Shown piece by piece: positions 53,141-60,299 of a stretch of DNA of 64,000 bases. The stretch is from Mycoplasmopsis agalactiae 14628 (lineage in GTDB: Bacteria; Bacillota_I; Bacilli_A; Mycoplasmatales; Metamycoplasmataceae), in NCBI RefSeq assembly GCF_000266865.1, contig NZ_AJPR01000011.1, positions 1 to 64,000 on the forward strand, in the 5' to 3' direction. The notes beneath the pieces were generated by a model, which saw only the letters and a program-made list of their open reading frames with translations, had not been told where the DNA came from and searched no databases. A program made the position numbers and the translations under genes. Numbering within the stretch: the first letter of the stretch is position 1; the number at the start of each line of letters is the position of its first letter.

Positions 53141-53148
53141 CATAAATG

Positions 53149-53154
53149 TATAAT
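53149..53154 (+). promoter_or_regulatory. -10 box placing the start of a leaderless hydrolase mRNA
   Basis: Perfect TATAAT ending six bases before the ATG at 53161. The transcription start would fall at or next to the start codon, and there is no Shine-Dalgarno. Confidence 0.6.
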
Positions 53155-53160
53155 TTTATT

Positions 53161-53946
53161 ATGAAGCCAATTTATAAATACAATGTTGTTTTCAAAGACA
53201 ATAATAATCCTAATGAAAACATAATTTTCTGTCATGGACTTAATTCAACAGCTGACAGATTTGATATTTTTAAAAATTATTGAACAAAATCAAATTATTA
53301 TTCACTTCAGTTTCCAGCAAGTAATTTAACACCCGTTTTAGAAAACGATGAACCTAGTGTTTTTTGTTTTGCAAAATTATTAGTTAAATTTGTTGAAAAA
53401 AATAATCTAAAAAATGTAACTTTAATAGGCCATTCTCTTGGAGGTGGAACAATTTCTTTAGCTTATCAATTAAGGCCTGATTTATTTAAGAAACTAGTTT
53501 ATATAGCCCCAATGAACAAACCAGCCTTAGCATTATATGATAGATATAAAAAAGACTACTTTCCTAAAGATTATGAAGGTTTCTTAGACCTTATGCGTTC
53601 ACTTTACTATGACATTTCAAAATTCACATCAGATCCACATTGAGTTAAAGAGCAAAAAGAAAATTTTAATCCTTATTTGTACAACAATCCTGATATTGTT
53701 AAGCTAGGAACGCCAGATATGAATGTTTTTAATGCTATAGAAGAAACTTTAAAAATTATTAAAGTTCCAACTTTATTAATTTTAGGTGAAAAAGACGGCG
53801 TAATTTTAAGAGAAGAGTGTATTGATTACTTTAAAAAGCACGTAAAAGATGTTGAGGCTCACTGAATTCCAAAAACAGGGCACATGATGTATCTAGAAGA
53901 CTGAGATTCGTTTATAAAAATTTTAGAACCATTTTTGGACAAATAA
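53161..53946 (+). CDS. Alpha/beta hydrolase (first of a tandem pair)
   Basis: A 261-residue hydrolase. It has the oxyanion HG in IIFCHGLNS, nucleophile elbow GHSLGGG near residue 99, acid residue in LILGEKDGVI and His in KTGHMMYLED. The fold is complete, so a serine esterase, lipase or peptidase activity is expected; substrate unknown. Several TGA-Trp codons. The second gene starts one base after its stop, and the two share near-identical DNA at their 5' ends. Confidence 0.88.
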
Positions 53947-53947
53947 T

Positions 53948-54766
53948 ATGAACACAATCTATAAGTATGATTTTGTTTTCAAAGACAATAATAATCCAAA
54001 TGAAAACATAATTTTCTGTCACGGTTTTAATTCATCTCCAAATTCTTTTAAAATTTTCGAAAACTATTGAACTAGATCTAATTATTATGCTTTACAATTT
54101 CCAGGTAATAATCATACCGAAATTAAAGAAGGCGATGAAGCCACTGTTGAATGTTATTCAGATTTATTAATCAAGTTTATAGATGATAATAAGCTAAAAA
54201 ACATTATATTAATAGGTCACTCTATGGGAGGCGGAACAATTTCTCTTGCCTATCAAAAAAGACCTGAGCTGTTTAAAAAACTAATTTACTTAGCGCCAAC
54301 AAACAAATCGTCGCAAAATGTTACTGAAGCTTTTTTAAGAGATTACTTTCCTAAAACTTTTGATGAATTTATTGGTTTTTTTAAATCATTATATTATGAT
54401 GTAACAAAATTTACTTCAAACGAATCGTGAATGAGACTTGTAAAAAATACATTTGATCCATATGATTTTAACAACCCCACAATAGTTGGTTTAGGCCAAT
54501 ATTTAATAAGCAACTATTTTCATGATAAATTGGAGCTTGCTTTACAATCTGTTAATGTTCCAGCTCTACTAATTTTAGGTGAAGACGATGGAGTTGTGGA
54601 TAGAGAGCTTTGTCTTAAATATTTTAAGGAAAATGTTAAAGGCGTTCAAGCACTATGAATGCCTAAAACAGGGCATATGATGTTTGAAGAAGACTGAGAA
54701 AACTTTATAAAGATTGTCGAGGAATTCATTGAGAAGCCTTCGGAAAATTTACCAAAAGCATTATAA
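53948..54766 (+). CDS. Alpha/beta hydrolase (second of a tandem pair)
   Basis: A 272-residue paralogue of the preceding gene. IIFCHGFNSS, nucleophile GHSMGGG, ILGEDDGVV and KTGHMMFEEDW give the same catalytic triad. The N-terminal KDNNNPNENIIFCHG is shared with the first copy. Adjacent start and stop imply one transcript. Confidence 0.88.
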
Positions 54767-54787
54767 AAAAGCCATTCCGGCTTTTTT
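54765..54787. terminator. Bidirectional terminator between convergent genes
   Basis: Stem AAAAAAGCC / GGCTTTTTT with loop ATTCC. It overlaps the stop codons of both the second hydrolase and the oxidoreductase. Confidence 0.85.
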
Positions 54788-55973
54788 AGTTTCCTTCTGA
54801 ATTAGAATTCTCTTCTAAAGTTTTTAATGATTCAGTTGGAATGGTTTCACAAAAACCAAACATTTCGACAATGCCTTTAAATGATGATTCAGGAACCGCC
54901 AAGTCTTTTAGTTGAGAAAAACTTATGTTTAAATTAATTTTGTCCTCTTGATTATTTTCAATTTTTTGAACAAATTCAGGGTCAGCTACAAAAACAGAAC
55001 TTAAGCCAACTAAATCAGAATATTCAAGAGCATCTAAACATTTTTGTGGAGTATTTATCCCACCAGATGAGATTATAGGCAGGGTTCCTTTAAACTTTTC
55101 ATAGATAACTTTGTTAACTAATTGTCCAGTATACTCGTTTTCTGATCTAACTTTATTTAAATATATATCATGTCCTCATGAAGCAATTGCTAAATAGTCT
55201 ATCTTTCCTTTTTTAATAATTTCATTTACAAGCTGTATAAAATCAATTATGCTATATCCTAATTCTGGGCCATATGTTTCTTCTGGCGTTGCACGAAATC
55301 CAAAAATAAAGTCTTTACCAGCATTTTCATTAATCACTTTTCTTATTTCTTCAACTATTTCAAGGCATAATCTGGATCTGTTTTCGAAAGTATTTGATGA
55401 ATATTCATCGTTACGTTTGTTAACAATTGAGCTAAAAAATGTTTGAATCAATAACCTTTGAGCCATTGATATTTCAACTCCATCAAAGCCGGCAGCAATA
55501 GCTCTTTTAGTTGCACTTGCGTAATCTTTAACTATTTGTTTTATTTGGCTTACGCTTAATTCAAAGACTTCGTGTTCTACTGGTATATGATTTTTTTCAT
55601 ATGATGGACCATAAAGATAGCCATATTTTTTGAGACTAGCTTTTGAGAATTTGCCAGCATGAGCAAGTTGCAAAATTGCTATATTACCTTTTGATTTCAT
55701 TGCATTAGCAAGCTTTTTTAATGATTCAATGTCATCGTCATTTTTTGCACTGTACCCATATTCAAAAAGCTGACCAAATTCATCGAAATATGTACCCCCC
55801 GAAATTAGCAATGGTGCACAGTTTGCCCTTCTAGCTGAGTACTCTTCTTCTTCCTTTGTTACTTTTCCGTCTTTAGTTGCCAAACTTAAAGTCATAGGTG
55901 AGAGAACAAAACGATTTTTAAGCGTGTAGCTACCTAATTTAAATGGTTTAAAAAGTGGAGCATATTTATTCAT
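54786..55973 (-). CDS. Old Yellow Enzyme-family NADH:flavin oxidoreductase
   Basis: A 395-residue TIM-barrel FMN enzyme: LFKPFKLGSYTLKNRFVLSPMTLSLA at the start, ILQLAHAGKFSK, AIAAGFDGVEISMAQRLLIQTFFS (the usual HGAHGYL changed to SMAQRLL), and FRATPEE. The VEI-S-MAQRLLIQTF substitution of the typical His may alter substrate. TGA-Trp joins the C-terminal part. Its start overlaps the lipoate ligase stop by 8 bases. OYE-type genes are known neighbours of class M sirtuin/GcvH-L/LplA operons. Confidence 0.88.
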
Positions 55974-57012
55974 TATCTTCCTCGCTCAAAATTGTTTTAA
56001 CAACATCATCAACACTTATTTCATTAAAAAAGTATTTTTCCAAATTTGCCTGTTTTACAGCACTATAAAGCTCATCATAATCCATTTTAACGCCTACTAG
56101 AACTTTTTCTAGCTCACTAATGTCAGCTTTTGCAAAAAAGTCACCACTGATCTTAATTTTTTCAATCCTTTGACCTTCAACAGCAAGTGAGAAATTAATT
56201 GTACCAATTGCCAATATTGCATCACGGTTATATTCATATCTAGGACTTAGTCCATAGTTTCAGTTTCAGTTTTTGTATTTGGTATTTACTAATTCATCAA
56301 TTTGCTTTCAATCGTTTTCAGTTAATACATATCTTTTTACTTTACTCAAGTCATCGACGTTAAATAATTTCTTAACCACCAAATCCTTGAATTCGAAAAT
56401 ATCCATATTTTTGTACGGCTCATCAAAATAATCACTTAAAGGCGCAATTCTTTGTCTTACTGACTTAATTCCTTTAGCTTCAATTTTCTTTCTATTTGGC
56501 TTTAGCACCTGTGACATAGCATCATAATCAATTTTATAAATATAAGTATTTCCACCATAAATTGTGTCACCAATTAGTGCCATTGCCGCACCACTAACTT
56601 TAAGCCCGTCAATTGTTAAGTCATTTTTACCTGATTGCACAACATTTTTAGCGCCTAATTCTTTGATAATTCTTATTGCGGGCTCTAGGAATTTTTCATA
56701 ATTTCCTAAAATGCTTTCGTTATTTTTATAAGGAATTAGATAACAAACCCCCATTTGATTACTATCAATATAAATAGCTCCGCCGCCAGTGTCTCTACGA
56801 ACTATTGGAATGTTATGTTCTTTTAAGTATTTAAAATTAACCTCAACTTCAGGATTTTGGAAATATCCTATCTGCACATAGGGATCTAAAACTGCAGGAA
56901 AAGCAACAATCTCATCAAATTTTAAATGACTTAATGCTCAGATTTGTGTAGCTAGATAGTAAGCACCATCTTTTATATATTTTCCATTTCTAATAGGTTC
57001 AACTAAAATCAT
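55966..57012 (-). CDS. lplA: Lipoate-protein ligase A (copy 1, downstream)
   Basis: A 348-residue ligase that attaches lipoate to a lysine. It has RRDTGGGAIYID (lipoyl-AMP site), GKNDLTIDGLKVSGAAM with catalytic Lys near residue 134, and GGNTYIYKIDYDAM. The C-terminal accessory domain has INFSLAVEGQRIEKIKISGDFF. TGA-Trp codons occur near both ends. A paralogue lies immediately upstream, with a terminator between them. A 173-base stretch is nearly identical to that copy. Confidence 0.93.
56132..56304. repeat. Direct repeat, copy A (lplA C-terminal region)
   Basis: Aligns without gaps to 57241-57413 with four differences by eye (about 98% identity), while flanking parts of the two ligases differ much more. 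Confidence 0.85.
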
Positions 57013-57019
57013 ATATACC

Positions 57020-57030
57020 CCTATAAAACA
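57020..57030 (-). repeat. Interspersed motif TGTTTTATAGG (exact)
   Basis: Exact minus-strand copy just upstream of lplA copy 1, preceded by C and followed by GG. Confidence 0.6.
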
Positions 57031-57044
57031 GCCATATTCAAAAA

Positions 57045-57075
57045 TATTGATTTATGAACTAAACATAAATCAATA
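57045..57075 (-). terminator. Terminator between the two lipoate ligase genes
   Basis: Perfect 12-base stem TATTGATTTATG / CATAAATCAATA with a 7-base loop. On the minus strand it is followed by TTTTTG. Confidence 0.8.
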
Positions 57076-57083
57076 CTGTTTTT

Positions 57084-58121
57084 TTACTCTTCATCCAATA
57101 TTATTTTTGCTACTTCTTCAGCATTTATTTCATTAAAGAAATAACTTTGCAAGTTTGCATCTTTAAAAGCCTTAACTAAGTCATCATATGTCATTTTTGT
57201 GCCAACTAATGCTTTTTCTAATTCAGTTATATCTTTTTTAGCAAAAAAGTCACCACTGATCTTAATTTTTTCAATCCTTTGACCTTCAACAGCAAGTGAG
57301 AAATTAATTGTACCAATTGCCAATCTTGCATCACGGTTATATTCATATCTAGGACTTAGTCCATAGTTTCAGTCTCAGTTTTTGTATTTAGTATTTACTA
57401 ATTCATCAACTTGTGCTCAATCTTGCTCAGTTAATTCATAACGTTTTACTTTGCTTAAATCATCAACTCCGAAAAGCTTTTTGATAACAAGGTCTTTGAA
57501 TTCGAAAATATCTAAATTACGGTATGGTTCGTCAAAATAGTCACTTAAAGGCGCAACTCTTTGTCTTATTGATTTAACACCTTTTGCCTCTATTTTTTTA
57601 CGATTAGGCTTTAATGAATCAACCATTGCATCATAGTCAACTTTGTATAAAAGAGAGTTACCGCCATAAATAACATCACCATTAAGCATCATTGCAGCGC
57701 CACTAACTTTTCTACCGTCAATAGTTAAGTCATTTTTGCCAGATTGAACAACATCCTTTGCCCCTAATTCTTTAAGCATTTTGATTGTTGGTTCATAAAA
57801 TTTGTCGTAATTACCTAAAATATTGTCTTTTTCGTCATATGGGATTAAGTAGCAAACATTAACAGAGTTATCATCAATGTAAATTGCCCCACCTCCAGTA
57901 TTACGACGCACAACTTCTAAGTTGTGGTCTTTTAAGTATTTAAAATTAACTTCAACTTCAGGATTTTGGAAGTAACCTAATTGAATATGAGGAGCAGCAA
58001 TTCCCGGAAACACAATTTTTTCATTTAGTCTCAAGTGATTCATTGCTCAAATTTGTATAGCTAATCAATATGCACCATCTTTAACATATTTACCATTTCT
58101 AATTGGCTCTACTAAAATCAT
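57084..58121 (-). CDS. lplA: Lipoate-protein ligase A (copy 2, upstream)
   Basis: A 345-residue paralogue with RRNTGGGAIYID, GKNDLTIDGRKVSGAAM and the same accessory domain. N-terminus MILVEPIRNGKYVKDGAYWLA is almost the same as copy 1. The start overlaps the sirtuin stop by 23 bases, so it is translated within the sirtuin transcript. It is the ligase most tightly tied to the GcvH-L/sirtuin cluster; copy 1 may serve a different lipoyl acceptor. That division is inference. Confidence 0.93.
57241..57413. repeat. Direct repeat, copy B (lplA C-terminal region)
   Basis: Partner of 56132-56304. Offset is 1,109 bases with no gaps. Confidence 0.85.
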
Positions 58122-58968
58122 TTTTAACCTCTAACAATTTATTAATAGTTTGTTTGATATCATCTGTCCAAACATAAGTTCTTTGTCTTATTTCAAGCGG
58201 AGTTCTATAAGATTTATTATTCATTGCAATATATTTTGAGTTAGAAAATTCTTTTGTCATTTCTCAGAAAGGAAATTTAATTAATGTTGGAGTTGAGTAA
58301 CCAACTCCTATTTCTCAAAAAAGGATCTTTTGACCTTTATGCCTATAAATAAAGTCTTCATACATTTCTTTCTCTTCAAAAAAACGTTTGTCTTCAACCA
58401 TACCCTTGCCTTTAAGCCGCTTGTTAACTTCTAAAAAGTTGTTGCACTTAGGGCAGCGAGGGATAAGTTCTAAAGGCACTTTCATATCCTTTTGTTTTTC
58501 AATCATTTCATAAACTGCTTTATCATTTGAATAAAGTGTGTTATGACACATTTTTGAACACTGAAGCAAGTTATATTTGCCTTGAATATAGAAAATTTTG
58601 TCAGCTTCAAAGTTTGCAGCTTCTAGTGAATTATCACTATTTGTTGTAATTATGTGATAGTTTTTGCCTTTTAAATATTCTTTTAGTTTCAAAAAACTTT
58701 CACTTGCAGGTTGGTCAAAGTAATTAAGCTTCATAAATCTAGAATGAAATGCCCAATAATTTTGAATATCATCAAAATGATAAACACTTGCTTGAAGCAT
58801 ATCTAGAAACTTAAACTCATCAATAAAGTCTTTAAAATTTTCGACAAATCTTTGTCCGCTATAGCCTATGCCATCAGCACTGGTCATTCCTGAACCAATG
58901 CCCACCACAATAGCATCAGCTTCATTAATAAGCGAGTCTAATTCTTTAACAGAGTTTAATTTAAGCAT
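58099..58968 (-). CDS. Class M-type sirtuin (SirTM), lipoyl-linked ADP-ribosyltransferase
   Basis: A 289-residue Sir2-fold protein. NAD-binding GIGSGMTSADGIGYSG is at residues 23-38, with TTNSDN near 107 where other sirtuins have TQNID. YIQGKY near 127 puts Gln where the catalytic His usually is, as in SirTM proteins. Zinc Cys pairs are CSKMC and CPKC. The C-terminal half reads through two TGA-Trp codons (LFWEIGVGYSTPTLIKFPFWEM) to TAG at 58099. Starts two bases after the GcvH-like stop. In studied bacteria SirTM ADP-ribosylates lipoylated GcvH-L; activity here is inferred from motifs and context. Confidence 0.9.
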
Positions 58969-58969
58969 A

Positions 58970-59314
58970 TTAAAAGTCTTCTAATTGTTCCAAAGTCTTA
59001 GGGTCAATGTCGCTTAAAATCATTACTCAGTTTTCACTATCTTTTGGTGAACTTAATAATTTAGGATTGGCCATTGCATCTTTATTAATTTCAACAACAG
59101 TAGCATCAAAAGGCATTTTTAGTGTCAAGATAGCCTTTGAAGCTTCTAAGTTTAAGAAAATATCATCTTTGTGTAACACTTTTTTGTCAGTGTTTTTATA
59201 TTGAATAAAACCAATTGTTCCGATATCATCCTGCATTTCAGGTGTAAATCTTAAATAAAACTGGTCTTTGCCTTCTAGTTTTTCCACAACTAAATACTTA
59301 ACAACTTTTTTCAT
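58970..59314 (-). CDS. GcvH-like lipoyl-carrier protein (GcvH-L)
   Basis: A 114-residue lipoyl-domain protein. The lipoyl lysine is K60 in NLEASKAILTLKMPFDATVVEINKD, matching the ESVKA...PVSGTVVEVN hairpin of GcvH. TGA-Trp in SENWVMILSDI extends it to TAA at 58970. No glycine-cleavage P, T or L gene is near, which is typical of GcvH-L in sirtuin operons. Its start overlaps the upstream flavoprotein gene by 17 bases. Confidence 0.92.
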
Positions 59315-60299
59315 TTTTACCTCTTTTTACATAGAAATCAGCAACATTCTTGATAGCTATTTTTCGATCATTTATATCTGCAATTGTTGGCAAAATCATC
59401 AAGTGATGTACTTTTAAATATTCGCATAAACTATTTAGCTTGTTCATGCTTTCATCATCAAAAACATTAAAGATACTTTTGTGCAAACGCAAGAAATTTT
59501 TGTGCTGTTCTTCACTAAACACAAACTGTTCAAACTCACTATATGATGGGTAATAAGCAAAATGATTAGGATCAGCAAAAGAACGATAAAATGCAATCAA
59601 ATTATGATTTCTCATTGATTTTTCATAATCAGCACCGCTTACTACATTTACACTAAGAGCAACTTCAGGCGGATTTTCATTTCAAGCTGTTTTATAGGTC
59701 TCAATGTATGAATTAATAACAGTTTCAGCATACACCTTAGAAGGGTTTAAAAACCAGCCATAATTGATTTTAAATTTATGCATAGCTGCAAAAATTGCAC
59801 TTTGTTCAGATGTTACCAACATAACAATGTCAACAGGCTTACTTATGTTAGGATTAACCTTAAAATCAAACTCTTTATTGTTGTTTAAATATTCATTAAC
59901 AGCAATAATTTTTTGTTGAAATTCTGCAGAAGTTAATGATGGTTTTAAAAGCTTAATAGTTTCTTTTGTGCCTATATTTGAGCCAAATCCATAAATAAAA
60001 CGCTCTGGGTGCAATAGATTTAATGTTTGAATTTGCTCAGCAACATTATATGCTTGATAATTAGCAAGCATAATGCCCCCACACCCTAATTTAATGCCAC
60101 TAACATTGTTAGCTAAATGATCAAGAAGAATAAGCGGACTAGAAATAACCAATGAATTAACATTGTGTTGCTCACTAATTCAAAAAGAATAAAGATTTAA
60201 ATCCCTAACATATTGACAAAGTTCAATTACTTCTTTGTAAGCTTTTTCATAGTTATTTTGGTCAGTTAATAGCCCATGGTCAAGAATGCTTATCTTCAT
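59298..60299 (-). CDS. Luciferase-like monooxygenase-family flavoprotein
   Basis: A 333-residue LLM-family TIM barrel starting MKISILDHGLL. It has FWISEQHNV, LGCGGIMLANYQAYNVAEQIQTLNLLHPERFIYGFGSN (the PxxxAEQxxxLxxLxPGRxxxGxG motif), and three or more TGA-Trp codons. TATAAT seven bases before the ATG marks it as first gene of the cluster and probably leaderless. LLM proteins are known members of extended SirTM operons. Confidence 0.9.
59689..59699 (+). repeat. Interspersed motif TGTTTTATAGG (exact)
   Basis: Exact copy inside the luciferase-like gene, antisense to it, preceded by C. Confidence 0.6.

Follow-up and report, generated by a model that had tools for sequence, protein, structure and literature searches.

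A SirTM operon without its macrodomain eraser in Mycoplasmopsis agalactiae and related mycoplasmas

Can a bacterium keep the enzyme that writes ADP-ribose onto a lipoyl carrier protein after the enzyme that takes the mark off has been lost? This question is raised by six genes for LLM, GcvH-L, SirTM, two lipoate-protein ligases (LplA-a and LplA-b) and OYE, which lie in this order on the minus strand (54786-60299) of the 64,000-nucleotide stretch of Mycoplasmopsis agalactiae 14628 analyzed here. This stretch, called the window in the following, covers positions 1-64000 of contig C11 of genome G000, an assembly of 919,593 bases in 22 contigs with a completeness of 99.3%. SirTM owes its name to its macrodomain partner, and published models describe the two as an ON/OFF switch pair. 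A writer under strong selection without an eraser is a direct test of such a model: either one-way ADP-ribosylation of GcvH-L is useful, or an eraser of a new type exists. The extended SirTM operon itself is already known from Staphylococcaceae and Lactobacillales, where it comprises GcvH-L, Zn-Macro, SirTM, LplA2, OYE and LLM (PMC4518038, PMC11490716). What is new is the absence of the macrodomain across the SirTM-bearing mycoplasmas tested, which reaches further than a preliminary description of the window had noted.

The open reading frames of the window were translated with the mycoplasma code (TGA as tryptophan), and only under this reading are all six genes intact. Five of the six proteins were assigned to families by Pfam or NCBIfam models, the exception being SirTM, which is matched by no Pfam model. 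Together with phmmer searches and a structure model, these assignments bear out the gene identities given in the preliminary description, including the tandem ligase pair (Table 1). The proposed kinship with the extended SirTM operon also holds, as an LplA gene adjoins SirTM and both OYE and LLM are present. The window shares with that operon all families except the macrodomain, the local order LLM-GcvH-L-SirTM-LplA and the catalytic and acceptor residues. It differs in the lack of a macrodomain and in the position of OYE, which lies downstream of LplA. Operons of the window type further differ in that one clade has a second LplA and several lineages have alpha/beta hydrolases adjoining the operon.

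The missing eraser was analyzed in 76 SirTM loci of Firmicutes obtained from a collection scan and in 29 SirTM loci from 28 mycoplasma genomes, and 31 SirTM-bearing mycoplasma genomes were searched genome-wide. In 73 of the 76 Firmicutes loci, GcvH-L and SirTM flank a gene for about 260 amino acids, whose product is a macrodomain protein (three were tested, each matching PF01661 with an E below 1e-33). Among the three exceptions, one locus runs off the end of its contig, and the remaining pair belongs to Gemella haemolysans, in which the cluster is rearranged and Zn-Macro is encoded elsewhere. A macrodomain adjoins SirTM in none of the 29 mycoplasma loci. Its absence from the window cluster, already described before, extends to the whole window genome, in which both the Pfam model and a Zn-Macro profile found nothing, so that a macrodomain encoded elsewhere in this genome was rejected. 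It also extends to all SirTM-bearing relatives tested, as the Zn-Macro profile matched in none of the 31 genomes (Gemella as positive control, E 3e-121). PF01661 was not found in 248 well-assembled genomes of the order, and the sole match in the order scan came from a genome that is 82% complete and in which SirTM has no match. ARH-type hydrolases (PF03747) were rejected as a substitute eraser, since they had no match in the 31 SirTM-bearing genomes either. A possible 32nd SirTM genome, G099, was left out, its match (E 9e-4, 30% over 139 residues) being taken as an ordinary Sir2. With neither the one eraser known so far nor an ARH hydrolase encoded in the genome, the earlier characterization of the modification as reversible is not supported.

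In the window SirTM, residues N110, Q129 and R184 correspond to N118, Q137 and R192 of the Streptococcus pyogenes SirTM, all of which are required for activity (PMC4518038). Q129 and G130 form the QG motif of class M, located where other sirtuins have the catalytic HG. The preliminary description had read the Gln in place of the catalytic His correctly, but it is no peculiarity of this protein; it was rejected as a novelty, being the class-defining residue of SirTM (PMC4518038). N110, Q129 and R184 as well as the cysteines C137, C141, C172 and C175 are invariant in 25 mycoplasma SirTMs and in a mixed set of mycoplasma and Firmicutes sequences. The AlphaFold2 model (pLDDT 90.5) matches the structure 5a3a with a Z-score of 38.8 and a root mean square deviation of 1.4 over 284 residues, followed by ordinary sirtuins with a Z-score of about 19. 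A Sir2 fold of Rossmann and zinc domain, whose absence had been named beforehand as a refutation, is found in the predicted model, in which the four cysteines would bind the zinc.

In GcvH-L, residues E26, D29, E57 and K60 correspond to E24, D27 (the ADP-ribose acceptor), E53 and K56 (the lipoyl lysine) of the carrier in known SirTM operons; none of the four varies among the 28 mycoplasma and 71 Firmicutes sequences compared. D29 is the predicted ADP-ribose acceptor, and K60 holds the position of the lipoyl lysine. The protein stops where the S. pyogenes GcvH-L stops and has no canonical C-terminal helix region, as is usual for the carriers of SirTM operons. A lipoylated H-type carrier with its LplA is common to this operon and the glycine cleavage system. 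In contrast to that system, the window genome encodes no P protein (PF02347, genome-wide; the T protein was not searched), and its carrier has the GcvH-L-specific Glu26 and lacks the helix region. The earlier remark that glycine-cleavage genes are missing is thereby confirmed for the P protein. Based on the conservation of the residues in writer and carrier, we infer a lipoylation-dependent ADP-ribosylation in the window organism, the activity that, together with a lack of deacylase activity, is expected of class M. The putative stress link of the preliminary description comes from the literature on Staphylococcus and Streptococcus.

The mycoplasma SirTMs fall on one side of a branch with an SH-aLRT of 99 in a quick unrooted tree, in which the placement of L056 and L050 is unsure due to a long-branch warning. 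Since SirTMs of other lineages are as a rule linked to a macrodomain (PMC4518038), its absence here is most simply read as one loss within the mycoplasma lineage. Most likely, Zn-Macro was lost before the SirTM-bearing mycoplasmas diverged. Compared with their counterparts in the three closest relatives, the window genes show ratios of nonsynonymous to synonymous substitutions (dN/dS) of 0.03-0.04 (SirTM), 0.02 (GcvH-L), 0.016-0.02 (LplA-a), 0.016-0.05 (LplA-b) and 0.13-0.17 (LLM, the fastest-evolving gene of the operon). The SirTM writer of the window lineage is under strong purifying selection and shows no decay. Since this comes together with a single clade of mycoplasma SirTMs, the writer seems to have outlived its eraser.

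A macrodomain-less cluster with two LplA genes is likewise found in Gemella haemolysans (L135, L138), which, unlike the window organism, has Zn-Macro elsewhere in the genome and a SirTM that groups with the Firmicutes. Common ancestry with this cluster was rejected, as the tree does not support it and Zn-Macro is retained in Gemella. The Gemella clusters show the order LLM-SirTM-LplA-OYE-LplA-GcvH-L; OYE and LplA are each present twice.

The window SirTM is probably a functional writer of the SirTM type that has no macrodomain to undo its work. It is not a plain member of class M, because a genetic tie to a macrodomain (by linkage or fusion), which belongs to the definition of this class, was sought and found neither in the operon nor in the genome. 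Several points weigh against a functional writer of this kind. The class motif GVGx[NT]TP reads GVGYSTP in the window SirTM, with Ser in place of Asn or Thr; numerous other mycoplasma SirTMs have GVGxTTP. No enzyme assay of any mycoplasma SirTM was found in the literature, and a highly divergent eraser may exist. Finally, the decision between loss and primitive absence hangs on the linkage rule observed elsewhere (PMC4518038), the tree being quick and unrooted.

Additional evidence comes from Mycoplasma hyopneumoniae, a related species in which ligase and GcvH belong to a macrodomain-less SirTM operon that, unlike the one in the window, has a single LplA and no adjoining LLM. The ligase adjoining SirTM in G024 is identical over 343 residues to 6jom (Mhp-Lpl). 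Mhp-Lpl lipoylates Mhp GcvH (Mhp H) at K56 (PMC7186572) and is specific for GcvH, whereas the substrates of the other ligase, LplJ, include PdhD as well (PMC7873978). The searched passages of the two ligase papers mention neither a sirtuin nor a macrodomain (PMC7186572, PMC7873978), and those on Mhp-Lpl and Mhp H describe no SirTM operon (PMC7186572). As the SirTM-locus ligase of G024 is Mhp-Lpl, the lipoylation step has been shown for an operon of the macrodomain-less type. The proteins ADQ90530 (annotated as a sirtuin), ADQ90531 (LplA-1) and ADQ90532 (NADH-dependent flavin oxidoreductase), whose accessions are consecutive, are expressed in M. hyopneumoniae 168, with an abundance above that in the attenuated strain (PMC6634062). 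This way, Mhp-Lpl, Mhp H, the 'sirtuin deacetylase' and the virulence-linked flavin oxidoreductase are joined into one operon, and the sirtuin, so far taken for a deacetylase, may rather be an ADP-ribosyltransferase.

In the proposed mechanism, LplA would attach lipoate to K60 of GcvH-L, and, once the carrier is lipoylated, SirTM would spend NAD+ to put one ADP-ribose on its D29. The flavin oxidoreductases OYE and LLM probably trade electrons with the lipoyl group. The zinc macrodomain, which reverses the ADP-ribosylation in Staphylococcus and Streptococcus, would have been lost and the writer retained under strong selection. In that case the mark would either be one-way, lasting until the protein is turned over or the Asp-ADP-ribose ester slowly decays, or be removed by an enzyme other than a macrodomain.

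Two tandem alpha/beta hydrolases on the plus strand (53146-54766), paralogs which are 57% identical to each other, converge on OYE and could act as a replacement eraser or as hydrolases of lipoyl adducts. Their orthologs, 35-57% identical to the window genes, are located directly at the operon edge in five lineages (the agalactiae/bovis clade, G056 on both sides, G025/G033, G020 and G038) and in three arrangements; in L052 the hydrolase lies directly upstream of LLM. All hydrolase copies in the 17-kb sections around the loci sit at the operon border, and 10 of the 29 mycoplasma loci have one. The rough chance product for this placement is 3e-5, or 1.7e-4 without the window lineage, a post hoc value that shared synteny could inflate. 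The Firmicutes loci, in which the macrodomain is present, contain no such ortholog. The best NCBIfam match of the border hydrolases is an AcoC-type dihydrolipoyl acetyltransferase subunit, with 57.6 bits at a cut-off of 307.

For the ending of the mark we favour a one-way mark with border hydrolases that act on the lipoyl group, although its probability stays somewhat below one half. Part of the lipoyl-GcvH-L would be committed to an inactive state that is ended by turnover, and the hydrolases would be lipoyl thioesterases clearing acyl adducts. This is consistent with the lack of known eraser families in the SirTM genomes, with the AcoC-type best match, with an alpha/beta hydrolase that follows a third ligase gene (see below) and with the precedent of ABHD11, an alpha/beta hydrolase acting as a thioesterase on lipoyl adducts (PMC12643935). 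However, the likeness to AcoC is only that of general alpha/beta hydrolases.

The bond between Asp and ADP-ribose is an ester. The border hydrolases might therefore have replaced the eraser and cleave this ester on GcvH-L, by which the switch would stay reversible through another fold. The border position of the orthologs across five lineages and their absence from macrodomain-bearing loci argue for this replacement, which is nevertheless unlikely, as a hydrolase near the operon is seen in about a third of the loci only, the chance estimate is post hoc, and to our knowledge no alpha/beta hydrolase removes ADP-ribose. It is just as improbable that a whole bacterial family ADP-ribosylates its lipoyl carrier without macrodomain or ARH and has recruited an alpha/beta hydrolase as a new aspartate-ADP-ribose eraser. 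It is also unlikely that SirTM and GcvH-L serve another role, the operon being no more than a unit for lipoate salvage and lipoyl relay (with GcvH-L as donor or redox carrier) and SirTM acting by binding or on a different target. The loss of the macrodomain and the retention of lipoate salvage and the E2 domain in mycoplasmas would fit this role, but SirTM does not vary in its NAD site and catalytic residues, nor GcvH-L in D29 and E26, and the dN/dS of SirTM is low. A decaying remnant after eraser loss, to which the truncated LplA-b of G073 and the LLM missing from several loci might point, is very improbable given the strong purifying selection on SirTM, GcvH-L and LplA-a, the intact window operon and the three operon proteins detected in M. 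hyopneumoniae, and for the window lineage it is ruled out by dN/dS.

Table 1. Features of the SirTM operon of the window and of its border.
Feature	Positions	Strand	Length	Evidence
LLM, luciferase-like flavin monooxygenase	59298-60299	minus	333 amino acids	PF00296 E 6e-14
GcvH-L, lipoyl carrier	58970-59314	minus	114 amino acids	PF01597 E 9e-9; S. pyogenes GcvH-L 5a35 E 1.2e-26
SirTM, predicted ADP-ribosylating class-M-type sirtuin	58099-58968	minus	289 amino acids	5a3a E 3e-93 (phmmer)
LplA-a, lipoate-protein ligase	57084-58121	minus	345 amino acids	TIGR00545 318 bits (cut-off 280)
Hairpin, terminator- or attenuator-like, LplA-a/LplA-b spacer	57043-57077	minus		14-bp stem, -12.9 kcal/mol, z -3.8
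LplA-b, second lipoate-protein ligase, tandem duplicate	55966-57012	minus	348 amino acids	TIGR00545 301 bits (cut-off 280)
OYE, Old Yellow Enzyme-type NADH:flavin oxidoreductase	54786-55973	minus	395 amino acids	PF00724 E 8e-58
Terminator-like hairpin, convergent OYE/hydrolase junction	54764-54788	both		-10.7 kcal/mol, z -4.4
Border alpha/beta hydrolase 2	53948-54766	plus	272 amino acids	PF00561 E 3e-16
Border alpha/beta hydrolase 1	53146-53946	plus	266 amino acids	PF12146 E 8e-17

Three of the gene junctions overlap, LLM/GcvH-L by 17 bp, SirTM/LplA-a by 23 bp and LplA-b/OYE by 8 bp. GcvH-L and SirTM are separated by 1 bp, and the 71-bp gap between LplA-a and LplA-b holds a conserved hairpin, which has the same stem and an altered loop in L032 and L033. 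The scan for sigma-70 promoters gave 36 sites compared to 39.0 in shuffled sequences, and since there is no excess no promoter is claimed. LLM reaches 166.7 bits with TIGR03558 (MsnO8 family), slightly below the cut-off of 166.95. The closest named genome is Mycoplasmopsis bovis (L060) with a SirTM identity of 91%, and G073 is closer with 96%.

Genome G056 carries two SirTM loci (L043 and L056). In the first one, a 737-residue frame may be an LplA-OYE fusion, and a 660-residue frame combines an alpha/beta hydrolase with an ABC ATPase-like part. The second one is a divergent GcvH-L/SirTM pair with no LplA or OYE alongside.

Both tandem ligases contain PF21948 and PF10437 and exceed the TIGR00545 cut-off, as expected of lipoate-protein ligase A; LplA-a matches 6jom of M. 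hyopneumoniae with an E of 9e-125. LplA-b is 75% identical to LplA-a. The DNA identity of the pair rises to 96-98% around 56170-56290 compared to 58-86% elsewhere, which suggests a recent gene conversion. LplA-b is confined to the agalactiae/bovis clade, namely to the window genome, G073, G081 and G082. As only these 4 of the 28 genomes read carry the duplication, it probably has nothing to do with the loss of the macrodomain; that the extra ligase compensates for this loss is unlikely, as a single LplA is the usual state of operons without a macrodomain. The LplA-b frame of the nearest relative, G073, stops at 234 amino acids (L032:6327-7031), by true loss or by a sequencing error.

An ectopic GcvH-L paralog of 125 amino acids was found outside the window (L159:6980-7357, G000:C3). 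It has LKTNKNEL in place of LEASKAIL, retains the Lys and the Asp, has lost the Glu of the lipoyl motif, and shows a dN/dS of 0.27-0.56 and a conserved C-terminal tail, EFAMWDRYQSLI. The paralog occurs in 4 of 61 genomes of the genus, exactly the four with the duplicated LplA, and because these form one clade this counts as one co-occurrence and not as four.

A third ligase gene of the window genome lies at C11:121332-122192 (TIGR00545, 390 bits) and is followed after 2 bp by a gene for a more distant alpha/beta hydrolase (L153:6216-8020, G000:C11, outside the window). A triacylglycerol lipase (ADQ90483) and an lplA product (ADQ90484) likewise carry consecutive accessions in M. hyopneumoniae 168. 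Finally, the sole Biotin_lipoyl match of the window genome is a stand-alone lipoyl-domain protein of 78 amino acids, encoded upstream of lactate dehydrogenase (L152:7456-7692, minus strand, G000:C3). An open frame of 245 amino acids with an E2 catalytic domain is located on another contig (L160, G000:C11:158079-158768), and the pyruvate dehydrogenase E2 therefore appears to be split.

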